Shown: piece after piece, positions 1-34,802 of the stretch | Numbering within the stretch: the stretch's first letter is position 1 | How the letters are laid out: the number at the start of each line of letters is the position of its first letter | Origin: Termitomyces sp. T153 | Taxonomy: Eukaryota; Basidiomycota; Agaricomycetes; Agaricales; Lyophyllaceae | DNA length: 64,000 nt | Assembly (NCBI GenBank): GCA_018296165.2 | Contig: JACKQL020000168.1 | Span: forward strand, 1-64,000 | Reading direction: 5' to 3' | The notes under the pieces: model-generated | Told to the model about the DNA's origin: nothing | Databases searched by the model: none | The model's input: the letters and a program-made list of their open reading frames with translations, nothing else | Translations under genes and position numbers: made by a program

Positions 1-749
1 TGTCATGACCCATTTCCTGGACCCCTGTACATTGCCCAACAAACCTCCATCCCCCCAGAACCTCCCCTGACACCCCGTCAAACTTCCCCAGCACTCTGCA
101 CCTACTCCGGCTAACTCCAACACATTCTTGGCTAACTCCAATGCATTCTCTGTTCTGTGTCTTGTTTTCCTTATTCTTAGTCTCCCGGTCTTATCTTGTC
201 TCTATTCCACTATCATTTTGTTATTGTTCTGTGTCTCCACCTGAATTTATTCTCATTCCTGTCTCTTCTCCATCTCATTTCATTCGACTCTGTCTCATCT
301 CATTTGATTCTGTCTATTGTGTTCAAGTCCTCTCAACTATAACACCCTCACAAACTCCGCAATTATGATTATGAACCTCCAACACTCTTTCACTAACTCT
401 GGACCTTGCTACACGCTCTGCTCCAAACCCCATCAATTCCCATTGATCCCCCATCAGAATTCTGGCTCCACTCCCGTCATTCACATAACCTCCACCTCCT
501 CTGCACCTGCAATACTCACATATGGACTTATGCCTAAACCTTGCCAAGCCTGTCCCCCTTTCCTGCAACTCATCCTCTACTCCTCTGGACCTCCCTGGAC
601 TTGCTTGGATCAATTCCCACTAACTATCCTCACAAGTCCCCAGTATTTGGAACACCTCCGAGTGCCCAGTTGTCAGTGCAGGGAATCACGTCTGCCTAGT
701 AAGGACTTGCCCAGTGTAGCTGAGCCCCCGTGGTCAGCAGAACCTGACA
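1..749 (-). mobile_element. Gypsy-type solo LTR, copy 1 (internally deleted)
   Basis: On the minus strand this reads from TGTCAGG (at 749) to GTCATGACA (at 1), with the TGT...ACA ends usual for LTRs. The same unit recurs at 20051-21166 and 42020-43153, which defines its ends. It is shorter than those copies because about 390 bp, including the TATA-like stretch, are missing near position 130. It lies directly behind the RNase H part of gypsy-1 with the 5-bp flank CAATC at 750-754. Its other flank is outside the window. There is no coding capacity; the open frames across it are incidental. Confidence 0.85.
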
Positions 750-1400
750 CAATCTCTTCTAGTGCATGGATAGCAAAGAGCTCTGGCTTGAGGAGGACAA
801 TGTTGTCATTATCTCCTGCTCCTGTGCCATGGTCAGCCTGCCTAGACAGTGCATCTGGTTTGCCCATACTCTGTCCTGGTTTGTAGTGCAATGAGAAGTC
901 AAAGTTGGCCAGATACAGAGACCATCAAGCTTGACGTTGATTGAGTTTCTTAGCAGAATGGAAGTACTCCAGGTTCTTGTGGTCTGTCCAGACTTTGAAC
1001 TTATGCTGTGCACCCTTGAGGAAATGCTGCCATTCTTCAAAGGACCAAATAATTTCCAGCATCTCTTTGTCATGGATCTCATAGTTCCACTCCACTGCAT
1101 TAAGGCTCTTGGAGTAGAAGGCTACTGGATGCTATTTGCCATCCTCTTTTGACTGCTGGGAGAGGACTGCCCCTGTAGCAAAGTCTGAGCTATCCACTTC
1201 CACATGGAATGGAGAGTCATTGTTGGGGAACAGGAGGACTGGCCTTGAGGTCACAGATTGCTTGAGGGCATTGAAGGCTGCTTGCTGTGGGGGCTCCCAC
1301 TGCCATGCAGTATCCTTAACTATGAGGTCAAAGAGGGGTTGTGCATGATGGAAGAAATCCTGTATGAACCTCTGATAGAAATTGACAAATACAAGAAAGG
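750..1400 (-). pseudogene. Gypsy-1 RNase H domain remnant
   Basis: Across several minus-strand frames the RNase H signatures are readable: [10 protein letters not shown], then NFDFSLHYKPG and GKPDALSR, followed by an acidic linker ending LFAIHALEEIV. The frame shifts at least once around 900-1000. The domain would remove the RNA strand during reverse transcription. It ends in the 5-bp sequence GATTG (minus strand, 754-750) and is followed at once by the LTR at 1-749. The coding frame is continued perfectly by the sequence after GATTG at 21167. Confidence 0.75.
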
Positions 1401-1401
1401 C

Positions 1402-1990
1402 CTAAACTTCCTTCTTGTTCCTTGGCTCAGGCCACTCTGCTACATCTGCCACTTTAATGGGGTCCATCTCTGCCATTTCATGCAAAATGATCAAACCCAG
1501 GTACTCCACTTTAGTCTGTTCAAATTTGCACTTCTCAGACTTTAAATAGAGCTGGTGTTGGCAGAGGCATTCCAAGACTATGCACATGACCTGGCAATGC
1601 TCCTCCAGAGTTCTTGTGTAGATATTATCAAGATACACGCAGACAACACCTTCCACAATCAGATCACAGAAAATGTCATTCATCATAGTCTGGAAGGTGG
1701 CTGGACTATTGGTGAGACCAAAGAACATTACCAGAGGTTCAAAGAGTCCGTGATTAGTTTGGAATGCTGCCTTCCACTCATCCCCTTCTTTGATGCATAC
1801 ATTGTTGTAGCCCCAGTGGACATCCAACTTTGTGAAATAGCATGCACCTCAAAGATTGTTGACAAGTTCTGAGATGAGTGGCAAAGGATAGCAGTTCTTC
1901 CACTGTCATCACATTCAGGACATGATAATCCTGAACCAGATGAAGAGACCCATCCTTCTTCTTAATAAAGAAGACTGGGGAGGCCATTGG
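1402..1990 (-). pseudogene. Gypsy-1 reverse transcriptase remnant
   Basis: The minus strand encodes the RT palm: a [16 protein letters not shown] motif near 1950-1910, FGLTNSPATFQTMMN, and the catalytic box as YLDN in place of YLDD (around 1625). The Asp-to-Asn change removes one of the paired metal-binding aspartates, so this copy would be inactive. The connection region YLGLIILHEMAEMDP-KVADVAEWPEPRNKKEV follows at 1500-1402. The frame breaks near 1830. Confidence 0.8.
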
Positions 1991-2570
1991 AGACTTGGAG
2001 GGTTATATTTGTCCTGAGCCAAGATTCTCCTGCAGGAAAGCATCCAGCTCATCCTGTTTACAGGGTGCAAGTGGATAGACCTTGTAGCTGGAGGGCTCCA
2101 CATCTGGTATCAGCTCAATTGCATGATCCCACTGCTTGTGCTCTAGAAGTGAATCAAAGGAGGCCCTGGAGAATACATCCTCAAAGTCATGGAGGTGATT
2201 GGGAACAGTGCCTTGGAAAGGCTTGGGCTGTGAGTTTGCTACAAATGCCTCAGCCAGACTCTAAGAAGTTGTCTGACTGGCCTGAATCTCTGCCACTGTA
2301 GAAGGGGGGCAGAGTGTTGGAGCATAGATCCAATCATCCATCTCTATAGTCTCATCTGGGGACTCTGCATCTAGAGTATGGGTCCATTCTCCTTTACCTT
2401 CCTCTTTCTCTAGAGATTCACACCTAACACCTCAGACATCCTTGTAGAGGGCCTCTCTATGAGGGAATGCCAGAGGGGGGGGACTCAGGAGGTCAAGATC
2501 AGCATAAGGGAGATGCCCAGCATGACAGGCACACACAGCAACATGCTCACAAGCTTTGGCTCTCTGCTCT

Positions 2571-3224
2571 TTACAGGCTTCTTCTGCACACTTCTGCACA
2601 GGTAATGCAGTGACATGAGCAACAACTCATCTTCACCTCACCCTTAGTCCAGTCAATCTCTGGGTTGTGTTCATGTAGCCAGGTGAACCCCAAGATTATG
2701 TCTTGCTTTCCCAAACTAGTGATGGCAAAAGTGGCTTGCTCTGAGTGGTCTTGGTAGTGGAGGACCAGGTCCATCATAGAGTGAATAGAGCCAGCTTCAT
2801 TGAGTGTACCATCAACATTGTATACAGGGATAGAATGAGAAAGGGGGTGAGTGGTCAGGCAGTGTTGTTGCACATAGTCAGTGTCAAGGAAGAGGCCTGT
2901 TGCACCAGGGTCAAGGAGGGCAACCACACTTTGGATCTGCTGGGTGTGAGTCATCTCAATTTCCACCTGTAACTTCAGAGAGTTGGTAGAAGGGGTGGAA
3001 GCAACAACATAATGATGGGGGAGGCAGCATTCCCATGCAGGAATCCAAAGGCATGGGCTATGAGGTGTGTTTCTAGCTGAGACTTTAGCTGGAGAGAGAG
3101 TTTGTATGTCTAAGGAGGGGGTTATCATTTCAGGCATAGTATCAACAATAGCAACAGATATATTTGATTCTATGGACAGGGGGGCAAAACAATTAGTACT
3201 GGGCAATGGGGGCATACTGGTCAT
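2571..3224 (-). pseudogene. Gypsy-1 retropepsin (protease) region
   Basis: This is about 217 codons on the minus strand. The retroviral-type aspartic protease is recognisable from VVALLDPGATGLFLD, where the canonical D-S/T-G-A triad is D-P-G-A, and from the downstream ILGFTWLHEHNPEIDW box, the usual ILGMxWLxxHNPxIDW of gypsy elements. The S/T-to-P change next to the catalytic Asp suggests loss of function. It lies between gag zinc knuckle and RT, as expected. The sister copy at 37463-37648 has D-S-R-A instead. Confidence 0.75.
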
Positions 3225-3235
3225 CCATTGCTCTT

Positions 3236-4381
3236 TTAAAAATCCTCAGACTCTGTAGGAACCTCCTCCAATACATTGGCTGCTTCCTCATAATGGACAG
3301 CTAGAGGTGCATCTGGAGAGGGGGTTCCTGTGGCATCCCAGGCTGCAAGGAGTTGGATAAGCAGCTCTTCTTGCTCTGATGCTGACAAGTAGCAAACTTC
3401 TAGCCCTTGAGGACAGTAATGGGCAAAATGACCTGCCTTCTCACAGCATTGACACAGCAAAGGAGTAGTGGACTGCTGTCAGGAAGCATCAACATCCATT
3501 GGGACTCCTTGGGGTAGGGAGTGCAGGGGAGCAACATGAGGCATGAAGGAAGGAGCTGCATCTGGTTGTGACAATGCTAATGCAGGTGCAGAAAAGGGAG
3601 CTCAGGGAGTGAACCCTCCATGAGAAGAAGAGAAGGTCAAGGGTTGTGTCTGCTGCAACTCATGTTGCAGTTCCATGAGCTGCCACTGCTCATGTGCAAT
3701 CTTGTACCAGGTATTGACATGCTCATCATCTGGGCACCCCTCTGCCATGGTGTCAATATGATCTCTGAAAGAGGGGTGGAGTCCATCATGGAAGGTTAGG
3801 CAGAGTTGTAGACTGTCTGGATATTCAGCCTGTTCAACTAAGGCACAAAAGGAGTCAATGTACTCATCAAGTGACTGCTTTTCTTGACTATACTGAGTTT
3901 GGTCTCGAAGGGAAAGAGCTGTGGTTTTGGTGGGGTCAATGGGGAAGAACTCTGCTTGGAACTCCTTCTCAAACTCTGTCCAGCTAGAGAAACTCTCCAC
4001 CTCTCCTGGGCATTGAAAGATATGCAGTGCATAAGTTGAGGCTTAACCAGCCTTCATATAGGAGAGGACCCAGGCAATTTTCAAGGCATCTGCAGTAAAG
4101 GCTTTACTGCTCAGCTGGATATAGGTGATGCAGGACTGGAGGAAATGTTCTCCAGCCTTACAATCTCCATCATATACATCAGGGAGTGCAGGACAAGGGA
4201 GTTTAGGATGGGAAGCTGAAAGGCCTAAGCCAGATGCAGATGCAAACAGTTCTGCAGCAGCTGGAGCTAGAAAGCCTGAGCTAGGTGCAGACACAAACCA
4301 TTCTGTATCTGCTGGAGCCATAGGAGGTGTAGTAGGAGCAAGGGGAAGACATTCCAAAAGGGCTTGGAGAGAAAGAAACAC
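3236..4381 (-). pseudogene. Gypsy-1 Gag (capsid plus CCHC zinc knuckle)
   Basis: The minus-strand pieces read in order. 4381-4043 is a proline- and alanine-rich N-terminal part with LPCPALPDVYDGD. 4000-3602 is the capsid core, with WTEFEKEFQAEFFP, SLDEYIDSFCALVEQAEY and a helix around EQWQLMELQHELQQ. 3460-3236 holds the zinc knuckle CQCCEKAGHFAHYC (C-x2-C-x4-H-x4-C). Stops separate the pieces. Gag packages the element RNA into virus-like particles. The same order with different breaks recurs at 39242-37750. Confidence 0.75.
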
Positions 4382-4954
4382 TGCTTCAGTAGTTTGATGG
4401 AGTCCAGTGAGTTCAGCTGTGTGGGAAGTAAGGGAGGCTTGGGTAAGTTGAACCTGTGTCTCCAGGGACAGAAAACAACTCCAGGCATTGTCCTGTGGGC
4501 TTGAAGTGTCAGGGGGAGGTGCTGGAGGGGTTGGCTGGGTTATAGGAAGGGTACAGGGGCACTAAGACACTGGTGGGAGAGAGACCTTTTGAGAAACCAA
4601 GTAGAAGCTCAAGTAACCAAAAAGGAGGCTCTCAGATGGAAAATGGAGACTTGTTCTGCTGTAATGGCAACCTCTAGAGGCTGTGGCTCAATCACACAGC
4701 TAGCAAAGGGAAAGCCAAAGTCTATTCAGTACTGTACAGTGTCTACTGAGATAACTACTCACCTGGCAAAGGAAAATCCAAAGAGAACAGGTCTGGGGAT
4801 TCCCTAGGCCAGGTGTGATGCTTCAGAGGCTTCAGAAGCATGATAAACAACTGTACAGTATGACAGAGAAAAAAGACACAAGTGATGTGTCAGCAATTGG
4901 TCAGCAGTTACATAAGCTGGTGGCAGTGTCAAAGGGGCCACATTTGTCTAAACA

Positions 4955-4990
4955 AGCTACGCCCCGTGCCTTCAGCATGGGCCTGTAGCT
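4955..4990. other. 3'-terminal hairpin of the non-autonomous Helitron
   Basis: Inverted arms AGCTAC and GTAGCT enclose a second stem (CCCCGTGCC against GGCAcGGG, here decayed to GCATGGG) with a TTC loop. It lies a few bases inside the element 3' end, where Helitrons carry their termination hairpin. Compared with the copy at 10421-10458, two stem CpGs have become CA and TG. Confidence 0.75.
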
Positions 4991-4993
4991 CTT

Positions 4994-5336
4994 GCTTCAT
5001 CCCAGACCCAACCTCACTTCATTCGGTTAGGTCCTCGATATTCTACTCAATGCTTCATCCCAGACCCAACCTCACTTCGTTCGGTTAGGTCCTTGTATTT
5101 CAAACTTAATGCTTCATCCCAGACCCAACCTCACTTCGTTCAGTTAGGTCTTTGTATTTCAAACTCAATGCCAAGTCCCAGACCCAACCTCACTTCGTTC
5201 AGTTAGGTCCTTGTATTTCAAACTCAATGCCAAGTCCCAGACCCAACCTCACTTCATTCAGTTAGGTCCTTGTATTTCTAACTCAATGCTAAGTCCCAGA
5301 CCCAACCTCACTTCGTTCAGTTAGGTCTTTGTATTT
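4994..5336. repeat. 59-bp tandem array, six units
   Basis: Units start near 4994, 5052, 5111, 5170, 5229 and 5288, each containing CCCAGACCCAACCTCACTTC and GTTAGGTCC. Within each unit, ACCcAACC can pair with GGTTaGGT across an 11-nt loop. The same family forms ten units at 10461-11037. The array is followed by a conserved AT-rich tail (5336-5550), also present at 11037-11245. Confidence 0.9.
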
Positions 5337-6466
5337 TGTTGACCAAGTGTTGCTTTTCTCTTACAATTCAATACACTGAGATTTCATCTATAAACTAATC
5401 ATGTATCTATATTACATTATTAACAAAATACTACAATGTCCACTGGTATATATTAGAGATGCTGAAAATTATAAAAGTTAGTACTAACCAACCAACTATT
5501 TAAACTGTCACACTTACATTTGTAAACCATTAATAATATCTATACTATTCTCCATAGGAGATCAACTGTCAGCACAGAAAAAGAGATTAGCTCTCAGATT
5601 AACCTAGAGAAAACATACCTGCAAAGCTACTGAATGCACAGAAAAAAAGCCTGATAAAGACTGCAGTGAAGTCTGTTTTCAGTCATGATCAGTCAATAGA
5701 GATGACCCTCAGAAAAGAAGTATACATAAGAAATTCAGCTTCTATACACCATCAAAATCAGCCATCAGACAATTAGGCAAAGAAAAGAAGGCCCACCTCA
5801 AGGACAGAAAGCTACTCAATGCTAAGAAATAGCCTGATAAAAGATGCAATAGTGAAGATCTGGTTATCAGTTTGATCAGTGATTGGAGATGACACTCAGT
5901 AGTAGAATAATACATGGCCAAGTAAGTGAAGCCTCTTTAGGAAAGTCTATCAAGCCAATCAAAGCCTTTTCTCACAGTATCAAAGCAGAGACAATGTTGG
6001 AAGCTTCAGTTTTCGGGAAGAAAGAAAGAGAGACTTGGTGTGATGTTTTTGATGTTTATATGATCAATTGATCTTTCCAAGGAACTGGCCAAAAATTTGA
6101 AGCCAGCCAACTTATGTAATTTTACATAAGCATTACATAAGGATTGATGGAACCCAGTTTCTTAAGATTCGTCGTTGCATATAATGAGCGCACAGCCACT
6201 TTCCCAGGAGTCGTCGCATATACTATAGATTATTGACAGAGAACCAGTGCAGCCTGAGGGCTGAAACTAGGACCAATAGATAGGGAAAAGGAAGGAGAAT
6301 CAAGAAAAACTATAACAGAGCAAATCTGACAAGAACTGGAAAAGGAGAAGGAGAAACAAGTGAGACATCCCCTGACACTCATGGAGGTGGTAAACATTAT
6401 GTTTTTTCCTTTGCTAATGTTGAGGAACATTTATTCCACAACACCACTGAGGCAAATGGTCAATAC

Positions 6467-7558
6467 ATGTACAAATTCATAGATCATGTCAATGAGATAG
6501 GCCTCATGGGCTATCCTATTTCTTCAGGAAATATACATGCCAAAATTCTGCTATCTACCCTAGCCCAGCATCTTATAGTGCGCCAAATATGTACTGTTGC
6601 TCAATGTCATGGTATTGTTCTTTTTAAATCTTTCTGTAAATCAGATGCTTTAACTGCTTTTGCACATCACAGCTGCCCAATATGTCATGGCAATATAACA
6701 GTTTTAAAGGCTAAACTTAGTCCTCAGTGGAGGAATACTCAAAGGCATGCAGTTGCTTGCAAAAAGGTGAAACTGGTGGAGCTTCAGTATAATGTTCCCC
6801 ATACTGACAATACCATCAACTTTTCCCCAGCCCCTCTTACTCATGAATTGACAGCTCAAATTATAAGAGACTTCTGTGACTCTTCAAGTCCAAAAAATAT
6901 TGAGGAAGCAGGGGGAGCAGTATGTGGAATGTTACATCCCTTTGAAAATATGAAGCTGATGAAAGGTCTGAAAAGGTTGTTCAGTGTATTGTGCATCAAG
7001 GGAGTTACCAGAGTTGAGAGAAAGTTGATGTTGGAATGTATACAGGAATTCAGTGGTCCAGTTATTGATCACACATGCGACTCAGTGTGTTTGGACTGTA
7101 GATCATCATTACTGAAGAGTAAAATGCCAAAATATGCACTTGCCAATGGCTTTTGGATAGGTCCTATACTAGATGTTCTAAGGGATCTTAACTGGGTTGA
7201 GCAACTACTTGTAGTGAAGATCCACAAATCCCTGTGTTATGCACATGTGTCATCTTCTGGCCTTAAACAGATGAAGGCTCATTTGATAGCTTTTGAATCA
7301 CCTGTAGAAAAGGTCTATGATATGCTTCCCCCTCCCAGGACAGACATGGATGATGTGTTGGTGATATTGTTCACTGGTCCTTGTCAACCTACAGAGGAGG
7401 AACTTAAATGTTTACCATTGCTTGTATGTCAAAATTCTGTGAGGAAAGCCTTGGAATGGCTTAAACTGTATCATGCAGCCTATATTGATGTCAAAATATC
7501 TGACACAAACTTAGATAGCTATTTGGAGTCTGCACCTCCTGTAAGCATAGTGTATTGA
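6467..7558 (+). pseudogene. Helitron A N-terminal Cys-rich domain (DUF6570-like)
   Basis: 363 codons beginning MYKFIDHVNEIG. A zinc-binding stretch (CPICHGN and CDSVCLDCRSSLLKSKMP) is followed by KYALANGFWIGPILDVLRDL, MKAHLIAFESPVEKVYDMLPPP and VILFTGPCQPTEEELK. This block is typical of basidiomycete Helitron proteins upstream of the Helitron_like_N domain. It probably contributes to DNA binding. The stop at 7556 is immediately followed by the next domain in another frame, so the gene is broken. Confidence 0.7.
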
Positions 7559-7579
7559 CAGTCACTAGATGAAGCAAAC

Positions 7580-9183
7580 ATGATTGATCCTGCTGTACAT
7601 ACTGTTGAAGGAGTAAACAGTGTCAATGCAGAGGAATGCCTGTTTGTAGTGCATGGATTGACTGGGGAGGAGTTGTCAGCCAAAACAAAGGATGAACTCA
7701 AGGGTATTGCATTGAAACATTGGGAATCTAATGGCAAGGCTTTGGCTGTAGGTCATTCTTCCCATCCAGTTACTTGGATGAAAGACCTGTCAGTTTACCC
7801 TAAAATGTTTCCATGGCTGTTTCCTTATGGGCTTGGTGGTCCTAGATGTGGAAACTCTAAAATATCTGTCAAGGCTCATAAATCTAGACTTTTGATGTAC
7901 CATGACAAGCAATTTCAAAGGGATGTTGAATTTCCCTTTGCTGCATTCAGTCATGACCCAGTGCAAGCAGTGACAACCAGTGGGTTTCTAGCCATTGAAC
8001 ATAATAATTTCAGTCAGATTGCAGAATGTATAGTTGGCCTCAATCCTAATGTCTCAAAGAATGTGGCTGAGCAGATGGCTAAAGGAGAACTTGTCAAGCC
8101 AAGTACCAATGAAGAGTGTGCATGTTCCAAGGCAATAGATGATTTAGATGCATTGTCTGGTTGGGTAGAGGGTGTGCCAATTTCAGAAAAACAAATGCAG
8201 AATGAAATATGGTCTCTGGTTATTGAAAAAGGTGCACCTTCATGGTTTATTACTCTATCACCTATTGATGTACAACATCCTATTTGCTTATATCATGTGG
8301 ATACAGCATATCCTTCCACCCTTCCATTCCCATGTCTTCCAACAAGGCCTATCAGTTAATTGCTCAAAATCCTGTGGCAGGTGCTCATTTCTTTCATTTT
8401 ATAGTTACTGCATTTATAAAACATGTACTCGGAGTGAGTGCAGATAGACAGGGACTGTATGGAAACATATCTGCTTATTATGGTATAGTTGAACAGCAAG
8501 GAAGGATGACATTGCATTTGCATATGCTGCTATGGCTATGCAGTAGTTTATTGCCAGAAGAAGCAAGATGCAGAATAATGTGTCCAGACTCTTCCTTTCA
8601 AAAGGCTCTAGTGGAGTATCTTGAAGCATCCTTCACAGAGGACTTCACTACAGGTTCAATGGATGATGTAGCAAATAATATCAAATCATCAAAGACTACA
8701 CCTGGTTATATTGACCCTACAAAATCAATGCTGGATCCATCCCCATCTCAATGTCAATGTGGTACTGATACAGACCATACCGCTGTAAACTGTCAAAATA
8801 GTGAATACACAGATAGTCAAGACATGGATAATGATAATCAAGGCATAGATAATGGATACATGGATAGTTGCAATGTCAAACCTACTTGTGTCAGGTGTAG
8901 AGAGATGTGCAATTGGTGGAAGCATTTCTTTTACACAGTGGATGATCTTGTTTTTTGTTGTAATGTTCACACTTGTGGTACATCCTTTAAGAAGGATGGA
9001 AAAAAGAAAGAAGGCAAGGAATATAAGGGCTATATGGATAACAAGTGGGGTAAATGTAAGGCTCATTTTCCAAAGCAGCTGTTCAAACAAACAGAAGTCT
9101 ATCCTATGATGGGTGCTCTTAACATGCAAAAAGCAGAACCCTGGCTTAACACATTGACACCAGCACTGACTTACCTGTTTTGA
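7580..9183 (+). pseudogene. Helitron A Rep (HUH nuclease) domain
   Basis: Two overlapping frames (7580-8359 and 8284-9183) together give a Helitron_like_N/Rep region: FPWLFPYGLGGPR, then VEQQGRMTLHLHMLLWL, in which HLH is the HUH metal-binding motif near 8510. A Cys-rich insert follows (CVRCREMC, CCNVHTCG at 8890-8980). The frame change near 8330 breaks the gene. HUH nucleases nick the donor strand during rolling-circle transposition. Confidence 0.75.
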
Positions 9184-10170: not shown

Positions 10171-10178
10171 ATTGGAAG

Positions 10179-10419
10179 ATGAACAGCTGCGCATATGACT
10201 CTGTCATCTCAATACTGTTCAACCTGTTTATAGAAGATCCTGCAGAATGGTCTCTCAATATGGGTAATATAAGCCCATGTATGTGTAAACATCTTGTGAA
10301 AGAATTCTCAAAAATCATTCCTAGAGATCATGAAGCACTTGAGGAATGCAGAGAATGGCTGAGAACTACTCTCAACTCCAAAAACCATTCTGTGTTTCCT
10401 TTTGGAGAATATATGTCCA
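10179..10419 (+). pseudogene. NSCAYD (Cys-protease-like) domain of Helitron A, 5' part
   Basis: The ATG at 10181 starts MNSCAYDSVISILFNLFIED. NSCAYD with a following helical segment resembles a cysteine-protease-like domain found beside fungal Helitron and other TE genes; that assignment is from memory of the family and is tentative. The frame runs to ATG TCC A at 10413-10419, where Helitron B interrupts it. Removing 10420-17326 gives a continuous frame into 17327 (MS-I-HTLVSELSMNKE). Confidence 0.6.
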
Positions 10420-10420
10420 C

Positions 10421-10458
10421 GAGCTACGCCCCGTGCCTTCGGCACGGGCCTGTAGCTC
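10421..10458. other. 3'-terminal hairpin of Helitron B
   Basis: GAGCTAC...CCCGTGCC TTC GGCACGGG...GTAGCTC forms a two-part stem with a 3-nt loop directly inside the element 3' end. It is the undecayed version of the hairpin at 4955-4990. Confidence 0.85.
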
Positions 10459-10460
10459 TT

Positions 10461-11037
10461 GCTTCATCCCAGACCCAACCTCACTTCGTTCGGTTAGGTC
10501 CTCGATATTCTACTCAATGCTTCATCCCAGACCCAACCTCACTTTGTTCGGTTAGGTCTTTGTATTTCAAACTTAATGCTAATTCCCAGACCCAACCTCA
10601 CTTCGTTCAGTTAGGTCCTTGTATTTCAAACTCAATGCTAATTCCCAGACCCAACCTCACTTCGTTCGGTTAGGTCCTTGTATTTCAGACTCAATGCTAA
10701 TTCCCAGACCCAACCTCACTTCGTTCGGTTAGGTCCTTGTATTTCAGACTCAATGCTAATTCCCAGACCCAACCTCACTTCGTTCGGTTAGGTCCTTGTA
10801 TTTCAGACTCAATGCTAATTCCCAGACCCCACCTCACTTCGTTCGGTTAGGTCCTTGTATTTCAGACTCAATGCTAATTCCCAGACCCAACCTCACTTCG
10901 TTCGGTTAGGTCCTTGTATTCCAGACTCAATGCTAATTCCCAGACCCAACCTCACTTCGTTCGGTTAGGTCCTTGTATTCCAGACTCAATGCTAATTCCC
11001 AGACCCAACCTCACTTCATTTGGTTAGGTCTTTGTAT
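10461..11037. repeat. 59-bp tandem array, ten units
   Basis: Ten units with a 59-bp period, starting near 10461, 10519 and then every 59 bp to 10991, form the 3' non-coding part of Helitron B. Units are nearly identical, more so than in the six-unit array at 4994-5336, and keep their CpGs (TTCGTTCGG). No spacers separate them. The AT-rich tail 11037-11245 follows and matches 5336-5550. Confidence 0.9.
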
Positions 11038-11329
11038 TTTGTTGACCAAGTGTTGCTTTTCTCTTACCATTCAATACACTGAGATTTCATCTATAAACCA
11101 ATCATGTATCTATATTACATTATTAACAAAATACTACAATGTCCACTGGTATATATTAGAGATGCTGAAAATTATAAAAGTTAGTACTAACCAACCAATT
11201 ATTTAAACTGTCACACTTACATTTGTAAACCATTAAGAATATCTATACTACATGGTCCAGCTATAGACATTAGGTGCTGAAGTTCATAGAAGTTAGCAAT
11301 TTTTTGCTTGTATCCAACAAAACTCACAC

Positions 11330-12811
11330 TTACATTTGTAAACCATTCAGGATTTCCTGATAGACAATATTTGCAGTCTTTCTTGATGTGTTTTCTAGGT
11401 CCAAGATGACTTTGATACAATCTCCTGATGTGCACCGAGAGAGTGCAACATAAAGTTGGCCATGTGAAAAAACTCCTGATCGAAGGTCCAATCCAACATG
11501 CTTGACTGATTGACCCTGAGACTTGTTGATAGTCATGGCAAAGGCCAATCGAACTGGGAATTGTCTCCTGCGCAATGGAATTGGCAAATCTTCTTCAGAC
11601 ACATCCATGTTGATTCTTGGAATCAAAACAATTGATCCTGCAAACTTGGCATCTCCACTGATGATCCTACATCTGAGAACTCTGGTGCTGATGTGAGTGA
11701 CAATCATTCTTGTCCCATTGCAAAGTCCTTTGGTTGTATCAAGATTCCTGAGCAGCATGACAGGAACACCAATCTTCAAAGCCAATTTAGCCAAAGGCAA
11801 ACTGCTGGCTCTGAGAGAGTTGAGGTATTCCATTGGATACAATCCAAGGCCATTAGGATTCCCATCATCAGATATGACAGAGTCTGCACTCTGCAAGATT
11901 TTCTCTTCTCCTGAACATCTCTGCAGAACTTCAGAGTTGATATCCTCTACATCAGAGTTCTTGCCAGAAAGGATGGAACGGTCCAGATAATACTGATCAT
12001 CTTGATGGTGATCAATATGAGGATAAGTGGAAGAGATCAATCCAGTGACAGAATTGTCATCACAGATCATAGTTTCTGGAAGTTGTACTGTTTCTCCAGG
12101 CCCAAGGTTTTTTCCAGCACCAACATCCAATAACCAAGCTGCATGAGCAATGTTATCAGGAGTCTGATCCAATCTCATGTTTTGAACCAAGTAGTGGACT
12201 TGAATCTGATCCCAAAGTCTTCCCCTTTTGAGTGAAGCAGCAATCATCTGCTGCCTGAGTCCTCGTTGGATAACTGGGAGAGTTTGCCTAAAATCTCCTC
12301 CAAACACCACAGTCACTCCACCAAAAGGAACATCCTTCTCCAGAATGTCTGAACCCTCGATCCACAGAGTCAATGGCATTTTTGTGTTGCATTGGAACTT
12401 CATCCCAGATGACAACTTTGGTCTGGAGTAAGAGTTGAGACAACTGAGTTCCTCTTTTGATATTGGCAATGGATGTATCCAGAGCAGGAATGGGGATTTT
12501 GAACCTTGAATGTGCAGTTCTACCACCCTCCAGCAATAAAGCAGCAATCCCAGATGATGCTACACATAATGCCACATCTCCATTGGACCAACAGCAGAAG
12601 CCAAAGTGTTGCAGACAAATGTTTTGCCACATCCACCTGCACTGTGAATGAATATCATCTTGCCCAAGTTGTTGTCCACAGAGTCCATAACTTCATTGAA
12701 GGCCCCCAGTTGTTCACCATTAAACCTGGCCTTGTTTTCATCCACCCTTCTCTTCAACTCTTCAACATTATAATCTGTTTCTTCTTGCAAAAGCCTATTT
12801 CCTGAAATCAT
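11330..12811 (-). pseudogene. Helitron B helicase domain (Pif1-like)
   Basis: The minus strand gives a full superfamily 1B helicase in three frames: motif I GGCGKTF near 12640-12620, motif II VIWDEVP near 12430, motif III VVFGGDFRQTLPVI near 12300, MTINKSQGQSV near 11530 and LYVALSRCTSGD near 11440. Two frameshifts between about 12520 and 12620 disrupt it. Stop codons at 12836-12838 and 12812-12814 separate it from the Rep part in the same frame. The helicase would unwind DNA during rolling-circle transposition. The C-terminus ends with SRKTANIVYQEILNGLQM. Confidence 0.85.
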
Positions 12812-12835
12812 TTAATCAGTATCAATGTCAACTCT

Positions 12836-15800
12836 TTATACAATGTCCAACTTGCCTGGAATCACATTCCAAACTTGTTGGGGTTCTGGCATGTTTGGAA
12901 AGTCTTGAAGAGTCTTGCCAAAATTCTTCAGATTGTCATTGATTAGATGAAGGCCATAGTCATAGACATCTTCATCAGTAAAGACTCTGTCCCTGTACTG
13001 CCTGATATTCTCCAATCTGTGTTGAAGATCATCACAAATGGAGTGCTTGAATTCATCCCATAGAGCCTCTGGAGTAGTAGGAGCACAGTGGAATAGGATA
13101 GTGCAAAAGAGCTGTCTGAGAGCTGATCCTGATTGGATTGGAGCAGCTTCAGCAAGACACTGCCTCCATTCTGCATCATCTTCTAGAAGACCAAGGGCCT
13201 TGCATGCCTCCTTGTAAGTAGGATAGGTGTGGCCATTGACTGTCCTGAGATCAGCCCATGATGTTGCATTGGTCACAACTGTCAGGAGCATCCTAAGGTA
13301 GAACCTTTCTCCCTGTTGAGGTGAAGCAAAGTACATCCTCCCAATAGCTGTTCCTCTCTGCCTCTCCTTCCAGGTCCTTTTAGAAGCTTCATAGACAAAC
13401 TTGGTTGGAAAGCTCTGATAAGTGGTGTTGTTATTAGGGAATCTGGCATTGGCTTCAAACCAAGCAGTGAGTGCAGTCTTGTTTGCATTAGGCCTGGCAG
13501 CTACCATCTCCAAAGGCTCATTATCTTGAAAGTAGACTTCATGTTGGCCCTCCAAATGCACAGGTAATCGATATACAGGGGGATGTTCTCCATGCATGTT
13601 GAATTCAAAGATGTGCCAGCAAGCCTCAGGTGCAGAGATGTATCTGGCATCCAAGTGTTCCTTGATTTCATCCCTCTGGTCCATCTGCTCTCCAGCAATC
13701 TCCAAAGTTGTCCTATCATGGCCTTTGTAGATGTACTTGTGAATGTACTTGATGGCTTCTACTGAAGCACAGACCTCCACATTGATGTGACATTTGTACT
13801 TGGCTGAGAGATAAGGATTATATGGAACAACATCTCGATTGTCATAATGATGACCATTCTTTTCAAAGAAGCGTCCATTGTCAGGTCTGGCATATTGAGG
13901 ATAGCCATTGTCTCCATACTGAGTAGCCTCTTGGAATTCCTTTGGGTATTTCTTGGAACATTTGCCATCTACCATGCACTTAGCATTGGGTTTGGCAGCT
14001 CCACATGGACCATGGACCATGTTGGCAGTAACAACCTGACAACAAAGATAAGTAACTGAATTCAGAATTCAAACAAAGCCAATACCTGATACAATTGAGG
14101 CTGAGTGACTGGATCTGGAATCTGAGCAGAGACAATGGAATCCACATCAGGTGCATCCTTGATCCTGTGATGGCGATGGAAAAAGATCAAGATGTGCATA
14201 TGTGGAAGTCCTCTCTTTTGAAATTCAATGGTATGAACATAAGCCACACAGCTGCTAAAGAGACCTTCCTTGATCTCCTTTACTACAGCATTTTTCTTGA
14301 GTTCAAAAACTCTGGCAACAATATCAGGTCGATCAGCAGCTGTTTGCCTTTTCCCATTGACTGCAGGTTCCTTCAAGAGAGCTTCTTCAATTTCTGACCA
14401 CTTTGGATTGGTAGTCATAGTCAAGAAGAGGTCAGGTTTTCCAAAATTCCTGCAGATAGCCATAGAGTCCTGGAATAATTGCTGCATCTGTCGATCACTT
14501 CCAGTATGGGAGGATGGGAGGATAACACGTCGGCTTTGTGGGGTGACTTGTTCATCTCCAGCAGCAGCATCCACTACTCCCTGATAAACTTCAGCTCTGA
14601 TCTTCTTCTGATTGTGTTGAATCCAATTCAACTTGTTTTGTTCAGTGGAAGCCCATGCATCTACAACATATTGTTGAAATAGCCTCCCACTCCAGAGTAA
14701 TGGTGCATTGAATTCCAAAGTCCTTTGCTGCAGCCTGTATGCATAATATGCTGTTTGGGTGACCTTTGCTGATCTTTGTTGATTCTGTGGTCCAAAATGA
14801 GAGCGAATGTTGGTGTGAAATCCAGGCTGTCCAGTGGGAAAGATGATGGTATAATGTAATGGAGTGTAATATGGGTGCAAGTGACTGATCTGCTTCAATT
14901 GACCTCCATGCAAGTGCAAGACTATATCATGATCATTTGATCGCTCTTCTGAGCCATTTCCTGGAATTACAGCTGCAACTCCCTCCTGTTCATTAGGGTC
15001 ATTATAGCGTCGAGGATCTCCAAAATCAGCTGTAAGCTTGACAGAAAGCCTTTGTGGTTGGCCTTCTGGAACTTCTCCCATGATCTGCCTGGCCTGCTTG
15101 TATAAGCCAATGAAGGGATTGACTCTAGCAAGCATATCCTGCAAAGAGGCCATTGTCTGAGGATCAAGCCTGGGATTGTTCTGTTGACGAAAAGCCAATT
15201 GCTGATTGTGATTGTAAAAGTAGAGCTGTGCATATACAGGCAGATTGCCTTCAATAGGAAGCAAGGCACCTGTCAAATGATGTAGTTCTCCATTGATCCT
15301 AAAGCTGTATGGTCCAGGTGCATTGGTAATGGCATGGTCAATTTTGACTCCCAAAGATGTGAATGCAAAGGCTGCATTGTATTGACGGATTGATGTTTTA
15401 AAGGTGTTAGAGAGAGGATGATGCCCATGGAGCAGGTTCAATAAATCTGCTGGAGCATCTCGAAGCCTGGGCAAGTTTACTTGGCCTTGTAAGCAGCACA
15501 TGCCAAACTTTGGGCTGTTTCTAGTAGACTTGGTGAGCTTTTCAGCATCAAAATGTAAAGCTTGGCAGTGTGGACATATGACAGTCATAGGACCAAGATA
15601 GTGTGGAGGGTATTCAATCAAGTAAGGTTGCCTTCCTCTTGGAACAGGCTGAATAGGACCAAGCTGTGGTGGAATAGGAAGCTCAAGGGGAGGCTGTTCA
15701 GCAGGATTTTGTAGTCCTGCTGGATGGTTGGGTGGAGCAGGGTCCAATTGCTCTGCAGGTCTCTGTTGAACAGGATCAACATATTCCAAGTCATCATCAG

Positions 15801-16008
15801 AAGGGATGTCATCCTGAGGACCCAATGGCACATCAAGGGGAGGATCCAATTGTTCTGCAGGTCTCTGTTGAACAGGATCAACATATTCCAAGTCATCCTC
15901 AGAAGGTATATCATTCTGAGGACCTAAATCATTGAAATCCTCTTCCAGATCAGCTTCATGTTGCTGTTCCCAGCCTTGAAAGATCCTTTGAGCCATAGCT
16001 GCATTCAA
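12836..16008 (-). pseudogene. Helitron B Rep (HUH endonuclease), one intron
   Basis: Two exons: 16008-14086 and 14035-12836. The 50-bp intron 14085-14036 (GTATTGG...TTGTCAG) joins LYQ to VVTANMVHGPCG. The HUH motif is EFQKRGLPHMHILIF (near 14225-14180), and the catalytic Tyr block is IKYIHKYIYKGHD (near 13760-13720). The N-terminal region has two near-identical copies of IPSxDDLEYVDPVQQRPAEQ (15930-15770). A CPHCQALHF zinc motif sits near 15570. The frame continues past two stops into the helicase, so this was one RepHel protein. Confidence 0.85.
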
Positions 16009-16068
16009 AGGCCTATGTTCAGGATCTAGATCAATATGCTATTGAACTTTGTTAGTTAAAGTAGCATT

Positions 16069-16881
16069 TCAAAGAAGTGTTTGACTGACTTCTTGTTCCT
16101 GTTGCCTCAATCTTTCCTCCTCCCTCAGCCTTGCCTGATGCAAGATGGCCAAAGCTTGTTGTTGCCTCTCCTGCTCTTCAACCATAGCAATATGTCTCAG
16201 CCTTTGCTGCTCCTGCAATGCTGCTAGTGCATGCTGTTGTTGAATTTGGTGGTCTGCCATTACTTCTCTATGAGCATCTGGTCTCACTCTCCTCAGTGCA
16301 GGAGCAGGTAGAAGAGGCACCAATCTAGGTAAGGGATTCTGCAAAGGAGCATTCCAACCTTCTGGCAAAACTGTTTCTGGAATGACCATAGCAGCTTGAG
16401 CAACAGCAGACTGATTAAGTCTATTGCCTCTTCTCTGTATAGGAGCAGGTGGAGGTGGCACCATTCTAGGGATAGGATTCTGTAAAGGAGCATCCCACCC
16501 TTCAGGCAAACCAGTTTCAGGAATCACTATAGAAAATGGATCATCAGCCACTGCTGGCTGCCTAATAGGTCTTCCTGAAGAGCCAGAAGTGGTGGCTATA
16601 GATTGGTGATCAAGTCTCAAACCCCCAGTTCCCATACCCCCAGTTCCCATAGATTGATTAATACCCCCAGTTCCCATACCCCCAGGCCCCAATTGAAGTG
16701 GTGGGACAACCACAGTATTGATCTGTTCCAAAGATCTATTGTTTCTATTTGCACAACGATCATCAGGATCTGTCATTTGTAACTGTTCAAGTCTCCTCTG
16801 AATCCTAGCTTGTTGCCTTTGGCTTTCAGGAGTAGTAGGTGGTTGCCTGAAACATCCATTGTTAAGCATTTTAATAGTCAA
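16069..16881 (-). pseudogene. Helitron B N-terminal exon
   Basis: The ATG is at 16869, followed by RQPPTTPESQRQQARIQRRLEQ, typical of fungal Helitron N-termini. The segment is Gln-rich (EEQERQQQALAILHQ) and has two copies of a VIPETxLPEGWxAPLQNPxPR unit. It stops at 16069. A plausible intron of about 53 bp, with branch site CTAAC and acceptor CAATAG, would join EQE to HIDLDPEHRPLNAAMAQRI of the next exon; its donor (GTCAGT) is not ideal. The region 16900-17326 upstream is non-coding and would hold the promoter. Confidence 0.7.
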
Positions 16882-17326
16882 AAACCATTAAAATTGACTT
16901 GCATGATGAGATATTTGATATATCAATAGCTCAATGTAGTTAAGGAGTTACTAATAAGCTTGTTAGTCAACATCAATCAATCAATAGATGTGACGAAACA
17001 TACTTTGTCGTGTGGCCTCCTTTCCACAACCTCGGAAATGTCCATTATTTGGTCATATTGTGTCAAAAAACGTGCGAGGCGTGAAAAACAGTGTCCACTA
17101 AATTGTGTTTGGCCTTTTTGACACCTGCAGGCTATGTGGCATGTTTCAAACATGGTCAAAAGATTGTATATATGTATTAAAGCTGTCTACTGTAATTTTT
17201 TTTGAGAAAAAACCTGTTCCAAGTGCGAAAAACAGCTAAGTTACCCAAAAAGGAAGGTTCTTGGTCAGCCTTACTAAGCAGAAAAGTCGTCGCATTTTTC
17301 CCAGGAGTCGTCCCATATATTATAGA

Positions 17327-17613
17327 TACACACATTAGTCAGTGAACTATCTATGAACAAAGAAGTCATTGGATTCATTAACAACATGTCCAGAACAGCA
17401 CATAAGGTGCCATCAGCAAGTGCAGTCTGTAGAATGTATGGACTTGTCAATATGCCAAGCAAAAGGTTTGATTATTGCAGTGTATGTAAGAGCAGATTGA
17501 ATCTACATGTCATGTGTATACAAAATAATCAAAAGTTTGATCTATTTGTAATCTGTTGCTCCAGCGGCTGTTTATGTAATTACACTCATGTGAACTTGTG
17601 TACTGGGTTTTGA
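17327..17613 (+). pseudogene. Helitron A NSCAYD domain, 3' part (after Helitron B)
   Basis: This is the direct continuation of the frame interrupted at 10419: IHTLVSELSMNKEVIGFINN, then a Cys-rich segment CSVCKSRLNLHVMC...CCSSGCLC. It ends at TGA 17611. The cysteine pattern suggests a zinc ribbon. Beyond it (17614-19160) no gene is recognised; the sequence is AT-rich with only short open frames. Confidence 0.65.
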
Positions 17614-19160
17614 CATCTGGACACTAGTCACAACTCTTTGTCCTCCACTTCACTACTAGTTGCTTTCATTCATCTCACCTTTTCAATCCTCTTTTGCAAT
17701 TGAATAAGAGGGTGTAATTCACTGTTATCACCATGAAGGGTACCTGACCCATGTTTTGTTAAATCCTGGGGTTGCTTGTTCTCTTTGGTAGAATTGAGCG
17801 TGGAATTTTTCTTCATTCTTGGTATACTGCAATTGGGTATCCAAAAAATGGATTACATAGGGAAGTATCTCTAAATGCTACTGTTTCAGTTTTCCAGTTC
17901 TATATGCTGCTGTGTGTCTGTTAATGCTACTATCCAAGTCTTCAAGTTCAATGTGCTGTAGTGATCTTAGTGCTATCACTCCTGGAAAGAGGGAGTTTGT
18001 CATTCTATGCCTTCAGAGACTCTATTACTTGACCTTGGTTTTACCTTGTCTTTGAAGGATAGTCTACCTTGTACATGGCACAAATACTTTGTGCTTACAT
18101 AATTGTTGTGACCATAGGGCTGAAGATATTTTCTGTTCATGTTGACTGTGTCCTTTCCCTATGCAGCTGTAAATCTACTATGTCAGCAATTTCCTTCACA
18201 AAAACAAACAGTGTATTTAACAAAAATCAATATACACTGTGAAATTTGAAGGTATGTCTGCTTACACCTATGTTCCACCCTTTGACTCAATCTCACAAAG
18301 GTATTCCATGTAACAGACATACATTGTCCATTATACTATGTGTCATACCATCTGAACATTTACACCTGTTTTTTTTTCATTGTATCTTTTACTTTCAGAC
18401 ATCACAACTTCTCCATGTCCTCCCTGCCATGCTCAACCATCATCTGTTGGTGTCCTCAAACATCCATCAAGTCAGCAGGCAGCTGCCATATGTGAGAAAT
18501 GGCTGAACTCAGCATTCAAGCAGTGACTGAGAGATATTTTGATGTTTGAACCCAGGCAAACATTGTCACTCTGGTCTTTTGGTATATATATTTAGCAACC
18601 AATTGAGCTTCCCATCCATTCACTCTTTATTTCAAAGTTCTTACACTCACTTTGACCACAAGTCTTGCCATCTCACATTAAAAGGCTTCAATCACAACAA
18701 CTATATGGTTGCCGCATTTCATACATACCCAAATGATGCACAACAACATCTAGACAGAGCATTTACATACAGTTACAAAGGACACTCTTACAGCTGGCAC
18801 ACATGACACATAATCATTCAACACTGTGTACTCAGGGTATTAACAAAGAAGTATGAGTTTAACTCAGTATTGAATGAGATCATGAGTGATCAGACAATTG
18901 TACTCATCTAACATATTAACTATTTTATCTATCTACATCTATAGTTTGCCATTGCAACAGGCAATCAATGATTGTTAGCCAGCAACATGTCTTTTTGTCA
19001 ATAAAATTAGGTACATATTATATTAGTGCTATTATATGTAGTCATTTGACAATACAACTTCAGTTGGTACTTATAATGTGAACAATGTATTATATATGTA
19101 TATATATGTATAGTTGTAATGTATTGTACACTCAAAAAATATCTATAGACCTCAGAATTG
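17614..19160. other. AT-rich stretch without a recognisable gene
   Basis: Short open frames (for example 18246-18506 and 18546-18806 on the plus strand) show no domain that I recognise. A fragment TSPCPPCHAQPSSVGVL (near 18410) could be part of a decayed transposon protein. 19080-19110 is a short TATATATGTA stretch. Confidence 0.5.
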
Positions 19161-20050
19161 TCATGTGACGCAATGGCCCATCCTTGATGGTTTGAGGTAG
19201 AGCTTGCTTTTGCATAGTCTTTCAAGAGAACTCCTGAGTAGAAGTGAGCCAATTAGAGAGCATGGGGTTGTTGGGGTCAAACACACCAAACTTACTGGAG
19301 CACTCCTGGGTAAAAGCAAGCCAATTAGAGAGCATGGGGTTGTTGGGGTCAGATCAGAGCAGCACCATGTAGTTGTTGAAGGCAATGCCTTGTAAATATG
19401 ATGCAGCAAAGGCCAAGCTGGAAAGTAATAGGCTTAGCTTGGAACATTGTGAGGCATTGCATCAGGAAGATTCTCCATTTCCATGGGTCACAACTAGTAA
19501 AAGATTCAGGTTTCTAGATGTTGAGTTTGCCTTCTTGGGCCAGTGCATTGCAAGTGTTGTCCTGGGTGTTTCAAGTCTGAGGCAGAGGTCCAGCATTGTA
19601 GTAGTAATAGTGATTATTTCTGTTGCCATGCGACTACTCTGAGGTGCTGCTTGTGTTCCTCAATGGAGTCCAAAAAGACAAATATATTGTCTAAGTAGAC
19701 ATGCATCCACTTGCCAATGACATTCCTAAAGATGAACATCATTAGACATTGGAATGTGGCTGGGATGTTATAGTCATCAATCTGCATGATGTTACTGCAA
19801 TATGTTCCCATAATGGTTATAAATGCAGTCTTAGGTATGTCCAATGTACATATCCCCACTTGCTCATATGCATTGGTGAGGTCAATTTTCAACCTCACTG
19901 CTGTGTGAGCAACATCTTCCCTAATGACTTCTTAGTCTGGTAAGGTATTACATCCTTAATGGTATTGTCATTGCACTGATGAACATCTAATGCCATCTGC
20001 AGGGATCCATCCTTCTTAGAGATGCGCAGTAGCAGTGCAGCCTGATTAGC
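19161..20050 (-). pseudogene. Gypsy reverse transcriptase remnant
   Basis: The minus strand from 20050 reads ISKKDGSLQMALDVHQCND, then LKIDLTNAYEQVGI and KWMHVYLDNIFVFLDSIEEH, a gypsy RT with YLDN replacing YLDD. It begins abruptly at the LTR (20051), so the upstream half is missing here. Downstream, 19230-19350 holds a tandem duplication of a unit of about 75 bp (AGCCAATTAGAGAGCATGGG). This is a different gypsy lineage from gypsy-1, judging by the RT sequence. Confidence 0.7.
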
Positions 20051-21166
20051 TGCAGGTTCTGCTGACCATAGGGGCTCAGCTACACTGGGCAAGTCCTTAC
20101 TAGGTGGACATAATTCCCTGCACTGACAACTGGGCACTCGGAGGTGTTCCAAACACTGGGGACTTGTGAGGATAGTTAGTGGGAATTGATCCTAGCAAGT
20201 CCAGGGAGGTCTGGAGGAGTAGAGGATGAGTTGTGGAGAAGGGGGACAGGCTTGGCAGGGTTTAGGCATAAGTCCATATGTGAGTATTGCAGGTGCAGAG
20301 GAGGCAGAGGTTACACAAATGATGGGAGCAGAGCCAGAATTCTGATGGGGGATCAACGGGGATTGATGGGGTTTGGAGCTGAGCATGTAGCAAGGTCCAG
20401 AGTTGGTAGAAGAGTGTTGGAGGTTCATAATCATAATTGTGGAGTTTGTGAGGGCGTTATAGTGAGAGGACTTGAACATAATAGACAGAGTCAAATGAAA
20501 TAAGATGGAGATGAGATGAGAATGAGAATAAATTTAGGCAGAGACACAGAACAATAACAAAATGATAGCGGAATAGAGACAAGATAAGACTGGGAGACTG
20601 AGAATAAGGAAAATAAGACACAGAACACAAAACATGAGAAGAAACAATCAGAAACACATCAGGTAAGGCAGATAGGTAATCTCAAGACTAGAGTATGAAG
20701 AAGTACTCTACATCTTATATACTGACTACTGGAGAGCTCCAGGAACATCGGCTGTGGTGGCAGGGCTTGGCAGAGCTTGACAGAGTTGATGGGTGTCAGT
20801 TACAACCAGAGGGCAGGCCACGTTGATATCTTGATGGGATCAATTGTTGACATGGTCCATTCTGAGATTGTCATGATACTCCAAGGTAAGTCAGAGGAGC
20901 CAGGGTGTCGAGTCAATGATGTGTAATGGGGTCAGGCATAGTGGGGGAGTGGTCCCAGGGGCTCAGGAGATCTAGGGGAAGTGCCAGCGGCTGTGGGGAA
21001 GACGTTGGAGTTGGCCAGGAGGCCGTCGGAGTTAGCCAAGAATGCATTGGAGTTAGCCAGAGTAGGTGCAGAGTGCTGGGGAAGTTTGATGGGGTGTCAA
21101 GGGAGGTTCTGGGGGGATGGGGGTTTGTCAGGCAATGTATGGGGGTTCAGGAAATGGGTTGTGACA
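20051..21166 (+). mobile_element. Gypsy-type LTR, copy 2
   Basis: It reads TGCAGGTTCTGCTGACC (first T lost relative to TGTCAGG) to GGTTGTGACA at 21166, and matches copy 3 over its length of about 1.1 kb. Its two flanks do not match each other (TTAGC on the left, GATTG on the right), unlike copy 3. The right flank matches the flank of copy 1, consistent with recombination between LTRs. Confidence 0.8.
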
Positions 21167-22580
21167 GATTGTGGCTCAAGGAGATGAGGCAAACATCCTT
21201 AGGGACATTAGATGAGGGAACTGGAAGAGTGCACAGGAGGATGCAGTTGCCCAGGCTGCACAGGCCCTGCAAGCTCAATGGGCAAGTGGAGTCAAGTCAG
21301 TGCATGCTGATGAGTGGGGCCTTTAGGATGGGCTGCTGACCTTCAGAGGATGCATTTATGTGCCTAACATTCCAGAACTTCACCAGTGCATTATAGAACA
21401 ACATGATGACTCTTGGATGGCTGGACATCCTAAAAGGTGGAAGACACTAGAGCTGGTATTCCAGAACTATTGGTAGCCACAGATCTCCCAATATGTAGGC
21501 ACCTACACTAGCACTTACAACCTCTGTCTCTGCACCAAACCTCACTGGCAAGCACCCATGAGCCAGCTCCACCCAGTTCCTATTCCAGCTGCTTGCTAGA
21601 GTGTTGCCTCAGTGGATTTCATTGTGGAACTCCTAGATGCTCATGGGTACAATGCTGTGATGGTAGTGGTGGACCTCTATGGCAAACAGGCTTACTTCAT
21701 ACCTATCCACACCACATGCTCTGCCTTGGGAGCAGCCAGCCTGTACTGGAAGAATGTCTGGAAACTCCATAATCTGTCAAATGAGTATGTCTCAGACCAA
21801 GGCCCCCAGTTTGTGGTAGAATTCACTTAGGAACTGTATCACCTGCTAGGAGTGAAGCTCCATACCACCATGGCCTATCACCCTCAGTCAGATGGGCAGA
21901 CAGAACATGTTAACCAGGAACTGGAACAGTATCTCCACCTGTTTTGTAATAAGAGGCAGGATGACTGGAATGATCTGCTGCTGGATGTGGAAATCCAATA
22001 CAACAACCATGTCCACTCTTCCACACAGATGACTCCATTCTTCCTAGACACTGGCAGGCAACCTTGCATGGGATTTGAACCTCATGCATGCCTCTTAGAG
22101 AATGACTCTGTCAACAAGTTTGTGGATTGGATGAGGAGGGCACAGCAGGAGGCAAAAGCTGCCTTGGTGAAGGCCAAGGAGGACATGGCATGGTACTATG
22201 ATTGCAGATGGACACCTGCCCCAGTTTACAAGCCTGGGGACCATGTGTACTTGGATAGCTCAGACATTAGAACAATGAGACCATTCCAGAAGCTGTCACA
22301 TCATCATCTTGGCCCCTCCACAGTGGAGAAGAAGGTAGGGCCTTTGACATACTGACTTAAACTTCCAGCAGGCCTATGTCAACTGCACCCAGTCTTCAAT
22401 GTGGTCAAGTTATTTCCAGCTCCAGAGGATCCAATCCCAGGCCTTCACCCTAAGCCACCCCCACCACCAGTCCTAGTCAATGATGAGGAGGAGTATGAGG
22501 TGGAGGAAATCTTGGACAGCAGGGTATTCTGAGGGAAGTTGCAGTTCAAGTGAAATGGAAGGGATATAACTATCATTTGA
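21167..22580 (+). pseudogene. Gypsy integrase with chromodomain (3' half of gypsy-1)
   Basis: The plus strand starts with AQGDEANILRDIR, then the zinc-binding H-H-C-C region (YVPNIPELHQCIIEQHDDSWMAGHP...YNLCLCTK). The catalytic core has VDFIVELL, SDQGPQF and DGQTEHVNQELEQYL, giving the D, D, E residues. A GDHVYLDSSDI barrel and a C-terminal chromodomain EYEVEEILDSRVF...KWKGYNYH (22494-22570) follow. In-frame stops at about 21226, 21325, 21829 and near 22350 and 22530 kill it. The chromodomain places the element in the chromoviruses, which target modified chromatin. Confidence 0.85.
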
Positions 22581-23110
22581 GCATTGCTTGTATCAAACAA
22601 TAGTGCATCACTCTTTGGTAGATTTGGAGCATCACTCTATGACAATAGCTAATCCTTGACAAACACAAGGACCAACATCGATGACCTTGTTGAAGTAATG
22701 GCAGGAAGCATCTTTTATCGGACTTAAATAAATAATGATAATGTCAAACAAGAACAGAGACAGACAACAATATCAACACTCATGAATCACATGATATAAT
22801 GTGTGAGTACTTAAGTACCAATAACAACAATTGGAACAAAAGAAATACTCCACACACTGAGAGTCTCATGATGGCAAAAAGTCAACTGAGGATAGTAATA
22901 TGTAAATGATCACTGCAGCAATGAATGATGTAAGCCTCTTGATTAAGCAAGTATTACATAGACCACAGATACAGTGACACTTTACATAATGGGGCTAAGG
23001 CAGCAACATGGAATGGTACTTATGATCATCACTGGCCAGATCAGACTAATGAATTCCAATTGAGTGATCATAAGTATATTACTAGCATGTACAATAAATG
23101 ACAGCTTGAA
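22581..23110. other. Stretch without a recognisable gene
   Basis: AT-rich, with no open frame of note and no repeat family that I can match elsewhere in the window. It includes an ATAATG/AACAACA-rich segment around 22730-22850. Confidence 0.5.
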
Positions 23111-34775: not shown

Positions 34776-34802
34776 TGGTGCTTGAAGATGGAGTAAAAGC
34801 CT

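Follow-up and report, generated by a model that had tools for sequence, protein, structure and literature searches.

An inversion bounded by two oppositely oriented long terminal repeats in a Termitomyces genome that also holds the uninverted arrangement

The inversion 2z3 of Drosophila buzzatii was generated by Galileo and shows target duplications exchanged between inverted elements (PMC2775673). In yeast, a study of Ty1 in Saccharomyces cerevisiae describes how crossover between Ty elements in inverted orientation produces inversions; replacement by solo long terminal repeats (LTRs) was common there, a figure legend presents one inversion with Ty1 at both breakpoints, and the four isolates examined closely showed inverted-repeat recombination on opposite arms and none on the same arm (PMC9879454). 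In Candida albicans, inversions occur at repeats, and lone LTRs or retrotransposons lie only rarely at the breakpoints of copy number variants and inversions (5.7%; PMC6591007). Here we describe a 64,000-bp stretch of Termitomyces sp. T153 (the window), in which the segment 750-20050 is inverted and carries at each breakpoint one LTR of the same family, LTR 1 and LTR 2, in opposite orientation (Table 1). The locus shares with 2z3 the oppositely oriented copies at the breakpoints, the exchanged target duplication and the single target copy in the non-inverted chromosome; however, Galileo is a DNA transposon, both of its duplications were exchanged and its chimeric copies were demonstrated (PMC2775673), whereas the Termitomyces copies are LTRs, one duplication is evident and the parental copies in which chimerism could be read are absent. 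The Ty1 rearrangements followed breaks induced in the laboratory, and the LTRs at both breakpoints depart from the Candida pattern while the location at repeats agrees with it. Among the papers listed in searches on Termitomyces, fungi or basidiomycetes (12 of 18 in one of them) and in a general search (20 of 57), titles and abstract openings showed no Termitomyces case. LTR-mediated inversion is a known process, and the locus is a well-documented example of an ordinary rearrangement.

The window comprises bases 1-64000 of contig C168 (74,459 bp), in a genome of 72.4 Mb and 307 contigs. The window begins where the contig begins, and the assembly has no left flank of LTR 1. Two resident retroelements are interrupted at the breakpoints. 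The first, G, we take to be a gypsy element, a name carried over from the original prediction and from the order reverse transcriptase (RT)-RNase H-integrase rather than from a clade test; the second is called T.

Table 1. Features of the window and their counterparts in contig C214
Feature	Window position	Strand	Remarks
LTR 1	1..749	-	395-bp internal deletion relative to LTR 2; the contig starts at the end of this LTR
GATTG, start-side half of split 5-bp target-site duplication	750..754	-	plus strand CAATC
Gypsy element G, protease-RT-RNase H half	750..3173	-	interrupted by stops; RVP_2, RVT_1 and RT_RNaseH_2 exceed the Pfam cut-off
Inverted segment	750..20050	.	reverse complement colinear with C214
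1.3-kb insertion	4953..6228	.	absent from C214 at that place; left end with 59-bp tandem repeat
6.9-kb Helitron (Helitron_like_N, PIF1 helicase)	10420..17325	-	within the inverted segment; C214 lacks it at that place
RT start of retroelement T (RVT_1)	19632..20050	-	upstream part in C208/C141/C22
TGCA	20051..20054	+	homologous to empty site in C208/C141; joint rather than clearly LTR
LTR 2	20055..21166	+	canonical TGTCA start missing
GATTG, end-side half of split target-site duplication	21167..21171	+
Gypsy element G, integrase half	21167..22567	+	rve, E 1e-4, below Pfam cut-off for the piece tested
Right flank	22563..39448	+	order and orientation as in C214 (blocks 94.6-98.7%, with insertions on either side); sets the limit of the inversion
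Inverted arm	1-139		pairs with 21028-21166
Inverted arm	146-295		pairs with 20483-20632
Inverted arm	288-335		pairs with 20463-20510
Inverted arm	336-746		pairs with 20053-20463
C214-colinear blocks	20054-19632, 19225-17326, 10419-10133, 10132-6229, 4952-3297, 3173-2499, 2389-748		reversed
C214 22723-25459	22563-25244
C214 25456-34928	26416-35923
C214 40943-42555	37400-39007
C214 43555-44000	39003-39448

The segment 750-20050 is inverted relative to an intact homologue, because contig C214 shows the unflipped order and contigs C208 and C141 lack the LTR at the other breakpoint. C214 6-12786 is colinear with the reverse complement of the segment, in blocks that run from window 20054 back to 748, are 92-97% identical and are separated by indels; a 2.3-kb stretch between the third and fourth blocks is present in C214 only. 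From its homology with window 748, C214 passes straight into that with 21167-22567, with a single GATTG at which the two matches overlap and with no LTR. Its native reading across the site is uninterrupted, ELFAIHALEGIVAQGDEGNILRDIR, and then reaches a stop. It had been predicted from the window that one gypsy element was split by an LTR insertion that duplicated GATTG, that its rejoined halves would give an open frame, and that the segment between the LTRs was flipped; C214 bears out each of these, as it reads through with one GATTG, has the open frame natively and is colinear in reverse with the segment, the right flank remaining colinear to at least 39448. The two halves of G abut, with an overlap of 4-5 bp, in at least 17 genome copies, C214 included, among the 39 + 39 matches listed outside the window (genome-wide copy counts are lower bounds, drawn from the best 40 matches of each list). 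Window and C214 differ at 502 of 13,073 aligned positions (nine stretches, 3-7% each), by 426 transitions and 76 transversions. The order found in C214 is repeated at 99.8% in the last 10.5 kb of C173.

At the second breakpoint, counterparts of window 17326-19225 and 19632-20054 are present in C208 and C141, which continue without an LTR at the site. The partner foreseen for the RT remnant exists: it is the upstream part of T, read across the site in C208 and present as the same DNA in C141 (99.8%) and in C22, at whose first base it begins (98%). On the minus strand of C208 a stop-free stretch of 106 amino acids enters the RT start across the site, and further stretches hold a zinc-knuckle motif and a protease-like DSG motif, both judged by eye, as are the gag and protease labels given to them. 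T is contiguous at this left site in at least 18 genome copies, four of the 18 with gaps of 2-27 bp; 39 of the 69 matches in one list and 26 of the 71 in a second entered this count, short fragments and matches on the far part of the query being left out. The position of the joint had to be revised. It had been placed at 20050/20051, but both empty sites match the window through 20054 (GATTRGCTGCA; empty-site reading TGCACATGG), which places the joint at about 20052-20055. GCTAA is therefore doubtful as a second target duplication, since the window goes on matching the empty site for four bases beyond the proposed LTR start and LTR 2 lacks TGTCAGG: it would need the loss of one base in the LTR start and a four-base coincidence, and CTGCA with five bases lost, or no duplication at all, would fit better.

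The presence of inverted LTR copies at the two ends, as first described (1-749, minus, and 20051-21166, plus), was confirmed by arms that pair at 88-92% identity and by family membership, and GATTG stands beside each of them, as had been stated. The LTRs were compared with 31 other copies, from about 3,300-3,600 first-look candidates (loci L002, L003 and L005 were dropped as the same copies as L080, L069 and L079). The family shows the hallmarks of LTRs, namely TG..CA ends, a 5-bp target duplication and paired copies around an internal region, the last of these on C10 and C7, where the partners are separated by about 6.6-7 kb. TGTCAGG starts 28 of the 31 copies and TGACA ends 30. Fourteen of the 31 were solo by rule, and 13 of these carry a perfect 5-bp duplication, among them a third family LTR in the window, at about 42.0-43.15 kb (GGGAA/GGGAA); the right flank of the fourteenth, L088, resembles the internal start of the element. 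Given this regularity, the mismatched flanks of two neighbouring LTRs, each with GATTG on one side only, are not background, and a chance match of five bases would occur about once in 1000 by our own arithmetic. At the first breakpoint the GATTG target duplication has thus been exchanged between the LTRs.

The arrangement in the window is the derived one, because the host elements are continuous at both sites in the genome copies counted above and because empty single-copy sites exist in the uninverted arrangement, in C214 for the first site and in C208 and C141 for the second. The inverted and the uninverted copy are thus found in one genome, together with an empty site for each breakpoint, and therefore the order of events, from resident retroelements to LTR insertion to inversion, can be read without another strain. 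Taken overall, the best explanation, and one we hold to be reasonably probable, is that a crossover between two inverted LTR copies flipped the segment. A copy of a retroelement with 1.13-kb LTRs inserted into the resident gypsy where its RNase H part meets its integrase part, duplicating GATTG, and a second copy of the family, as the LTR 2 start suggests, would have interrupted the RT start of T in opposite orientation, at a distance of some 13-20 kb. The crossover would then have turned the intervening DNA and parted the two copies of GATTG; each breakpoint would have kept a remnant the size of an LTR, and both host elements would have been cut in two. The LTRs would later have been blurred by indels and by decay rich in transitions, with a few bases probably lost at the start of LTR 2. 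The LTR 2 joint lies no more than 5 nt from the LTR end, which favours the crossover, because an LTR insertion at that place explains the position without coincidence.

Several observations weigh against a crossover between two insertions. The start of LTR 2, TGCAGG, differs from that of all 31 other copies compared. LTR 1 and LTR 2 are sisters in a tree of 33 rows (support 99/97) and in a second one of 26 rows (97/97), the two parts of LTR 1 being aligned separately across its deletion, and such kinship is seldom expected of two random insertions. Their present identity of 91% is low for crossing-over, though it may have been higher at the time. Analysed apart, the start and end parts each group LTR 1 with LTR 2 (Shimodaira-Hasegawa-like approximate likelihood ratio test, 95 and 92). 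A second target duplication at the left breakpoint is not demonstrable, its left flank lying outside the assembly, and a gapped pattern built from the terminus of the left flank and that of the LTR gave no match in the genome contigs, as expected if the contigs stop there.

The sister relation is what would follow if one full-length element had stood at GATTG, with LTR 1 as its 5' and LTR 2 as its 3' LTR, and mis-joined breaks had flipped the segment by end joining. With one break at the left site and others within the element or next to it, the internal region would have been lost, and LTR 2 would have been joined at a 2-bp CA microhomology, in keeping with the non-canonical joint TGCA/GG. 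The same-element pair L066/L006 is recovered as sisters with like support (100/97), the three private shared states of LTR 1 and LTR 2 tie for the most among 528 pairs, their divergence (64 of 720 positions, 58 transitions and 6 transversions) resembles that of same-element pairs (98/1131 and 106/1122), and 6 transversions in 720 are near the rate between window and C214 (76/13,073). However, the other control pair of one element, L063/L069, is not recovered as sisters and 5 of the 528 pairs are more alike than LTR 1 and LTR 2, which makes kinship a weak marker, and chance would have had to place the break no more than 5 nt from the inner end of LTR 2. We consider this course of events possible but rather unlikely. 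Dating by LTR divergence was rejected: transitions dominate, and C>T plus G>A changes are in excess (15 vs 5 in LTR 1, 21 vs 6 in LTR 2, more weakly in the control L063, 5 vs 4), so that the age of the LTRs is not comparable with that of the flanks.

If staggered breaks had flanked one solo LTR at GATTG, fill-in followed by inverted rejoining would duplicate the LTR at both ends and explain the half duplication at each end, the sister LTRs and the empty left site without a second insertion; end-joining inversions of this kind, cited in PMC2775673, can leave duplicated sequence beside the inverted segment. Here, though, nicks and breaks would have had to coincide with the LTR ends, and transitions are more frequent between the LTRs (58/720) than between window and C214 (426/13,073), unless fresh LTRs decay faster, and we judge the scheme very unlikely. 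An assembly chimera, in which C168 would be a wrong join of several near-identical copies, could draw on the multi-copy locus, on the termination of C168, C214 and C22 at or near the left breakpoint and on other contig ends that coincide at common points, but we judge it very unlikely, as the LTRs differ by 9% and a 395-bp deletion and are too different to come from the collapse of one repeat, the joint at about 20054 has almost no homology by which an assembler could be misled, the splitting of GATTG would have to be coincidental, and the stretches of C168 that lie 3-7% from C214 mark a distinct copy.

The contig ends at the left breakpoint lie close together. C22:1 and C214:1 share a single base, C208:2426, and the window matches C208 through 2421; C22 and C214 thus end 4-5 bp from the breakpoint, C214 begins 5-9 bp beyond the second site, and C168 starts at the LTR end. 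Contig ends of this kind would be expected at a point where a second arrangement branches off, and C22 would continue into C214 in one arrangement and into C168 in the other. Assigning C22 to either by divergence failed, the distances favouring neither (C22 vs C208 about 2%, 57/2,992 mismatches; C214 vs C208 15/2,426; window vs C208 3-4%). The contigs C168, C214, C173, C208, C141 and C22 are either alleles or units of a duplicated array. It is conceivable, though we would put it forward only tentatively, that both orientations coexist in the isolate, in two nuclei or in neighbouring array units, with C22 as a common left flank that splits at the breakpoint, as a live LTR-driven inversion polymorphism in an array of NACHT-type immune-receptor-like genes. 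The locus is a case of retroelement-driven shuffling adjoining NACHT genes in Termitomyces.

As for the LTR family, its copy at C10 60855-68625, the single copy scanned, has no recognisable pol: in 4.5 kb of its internal region, 7 + 4 stop-free pieces on the two strands (longer pieces only) gave no Pfam match at E 0.1, and the element may be non-autonomous. Another gypsy copy (C22 3326-6928, C208 5750-8128) carries an LTR-like insertion of about 70% similarity near its RNase H-integrase region; in C22 both halves stand in normal order.

Within the inverted segment, the Helitron and the 1.3-kb insertion have a 59-bp tandem repeat in common at one end of each, the repeat at the left end of the 1.3-kb insertion being also present at 10394-11165. 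A 406-bp stretch (19226-19631) overlapping a 72-bp-spaced repeat is not found in C214, C208 or C141. Between the gypsy integrase match and the right flank C214 has 8.5 kb of its own (14179-22722), within which 15102-22458 is a stretch related to these two insertions; the window lacks these 8.5 kb and shows a 5-bp overlap at the joint (22563-22567), either through a microhomology deletion in the window or through insertions in C214. A second inverted repeat pair in the window (25242-26419/35920-37174, 89.6%), whose left copy (about 25245-26415) is absent from C214, encloses 26416-35923 in the same orientation as in C214, and the idea that inverted repeats alone imply inversion was rejected. Look-ups against phages and plasmids gave no match. 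C141 and C173 both join the right flank at position 138, and C141 ends exactly where C208 starts, at window 10324, which suggests collapsed or forked repeats in the array. The matches listed for the flank 22568-24400 include five copies at 94% (C141, C214, C218, C173, C225) and another five at 88-90%. For the stretch 58500-60500, C244, C78 and C173 carry matches that round to 100% and C208 carries one of 98%, and the two best matches of the NACHT-like open reading frame at 60272-61666, at 89% and 88%, are in Termitomyces.

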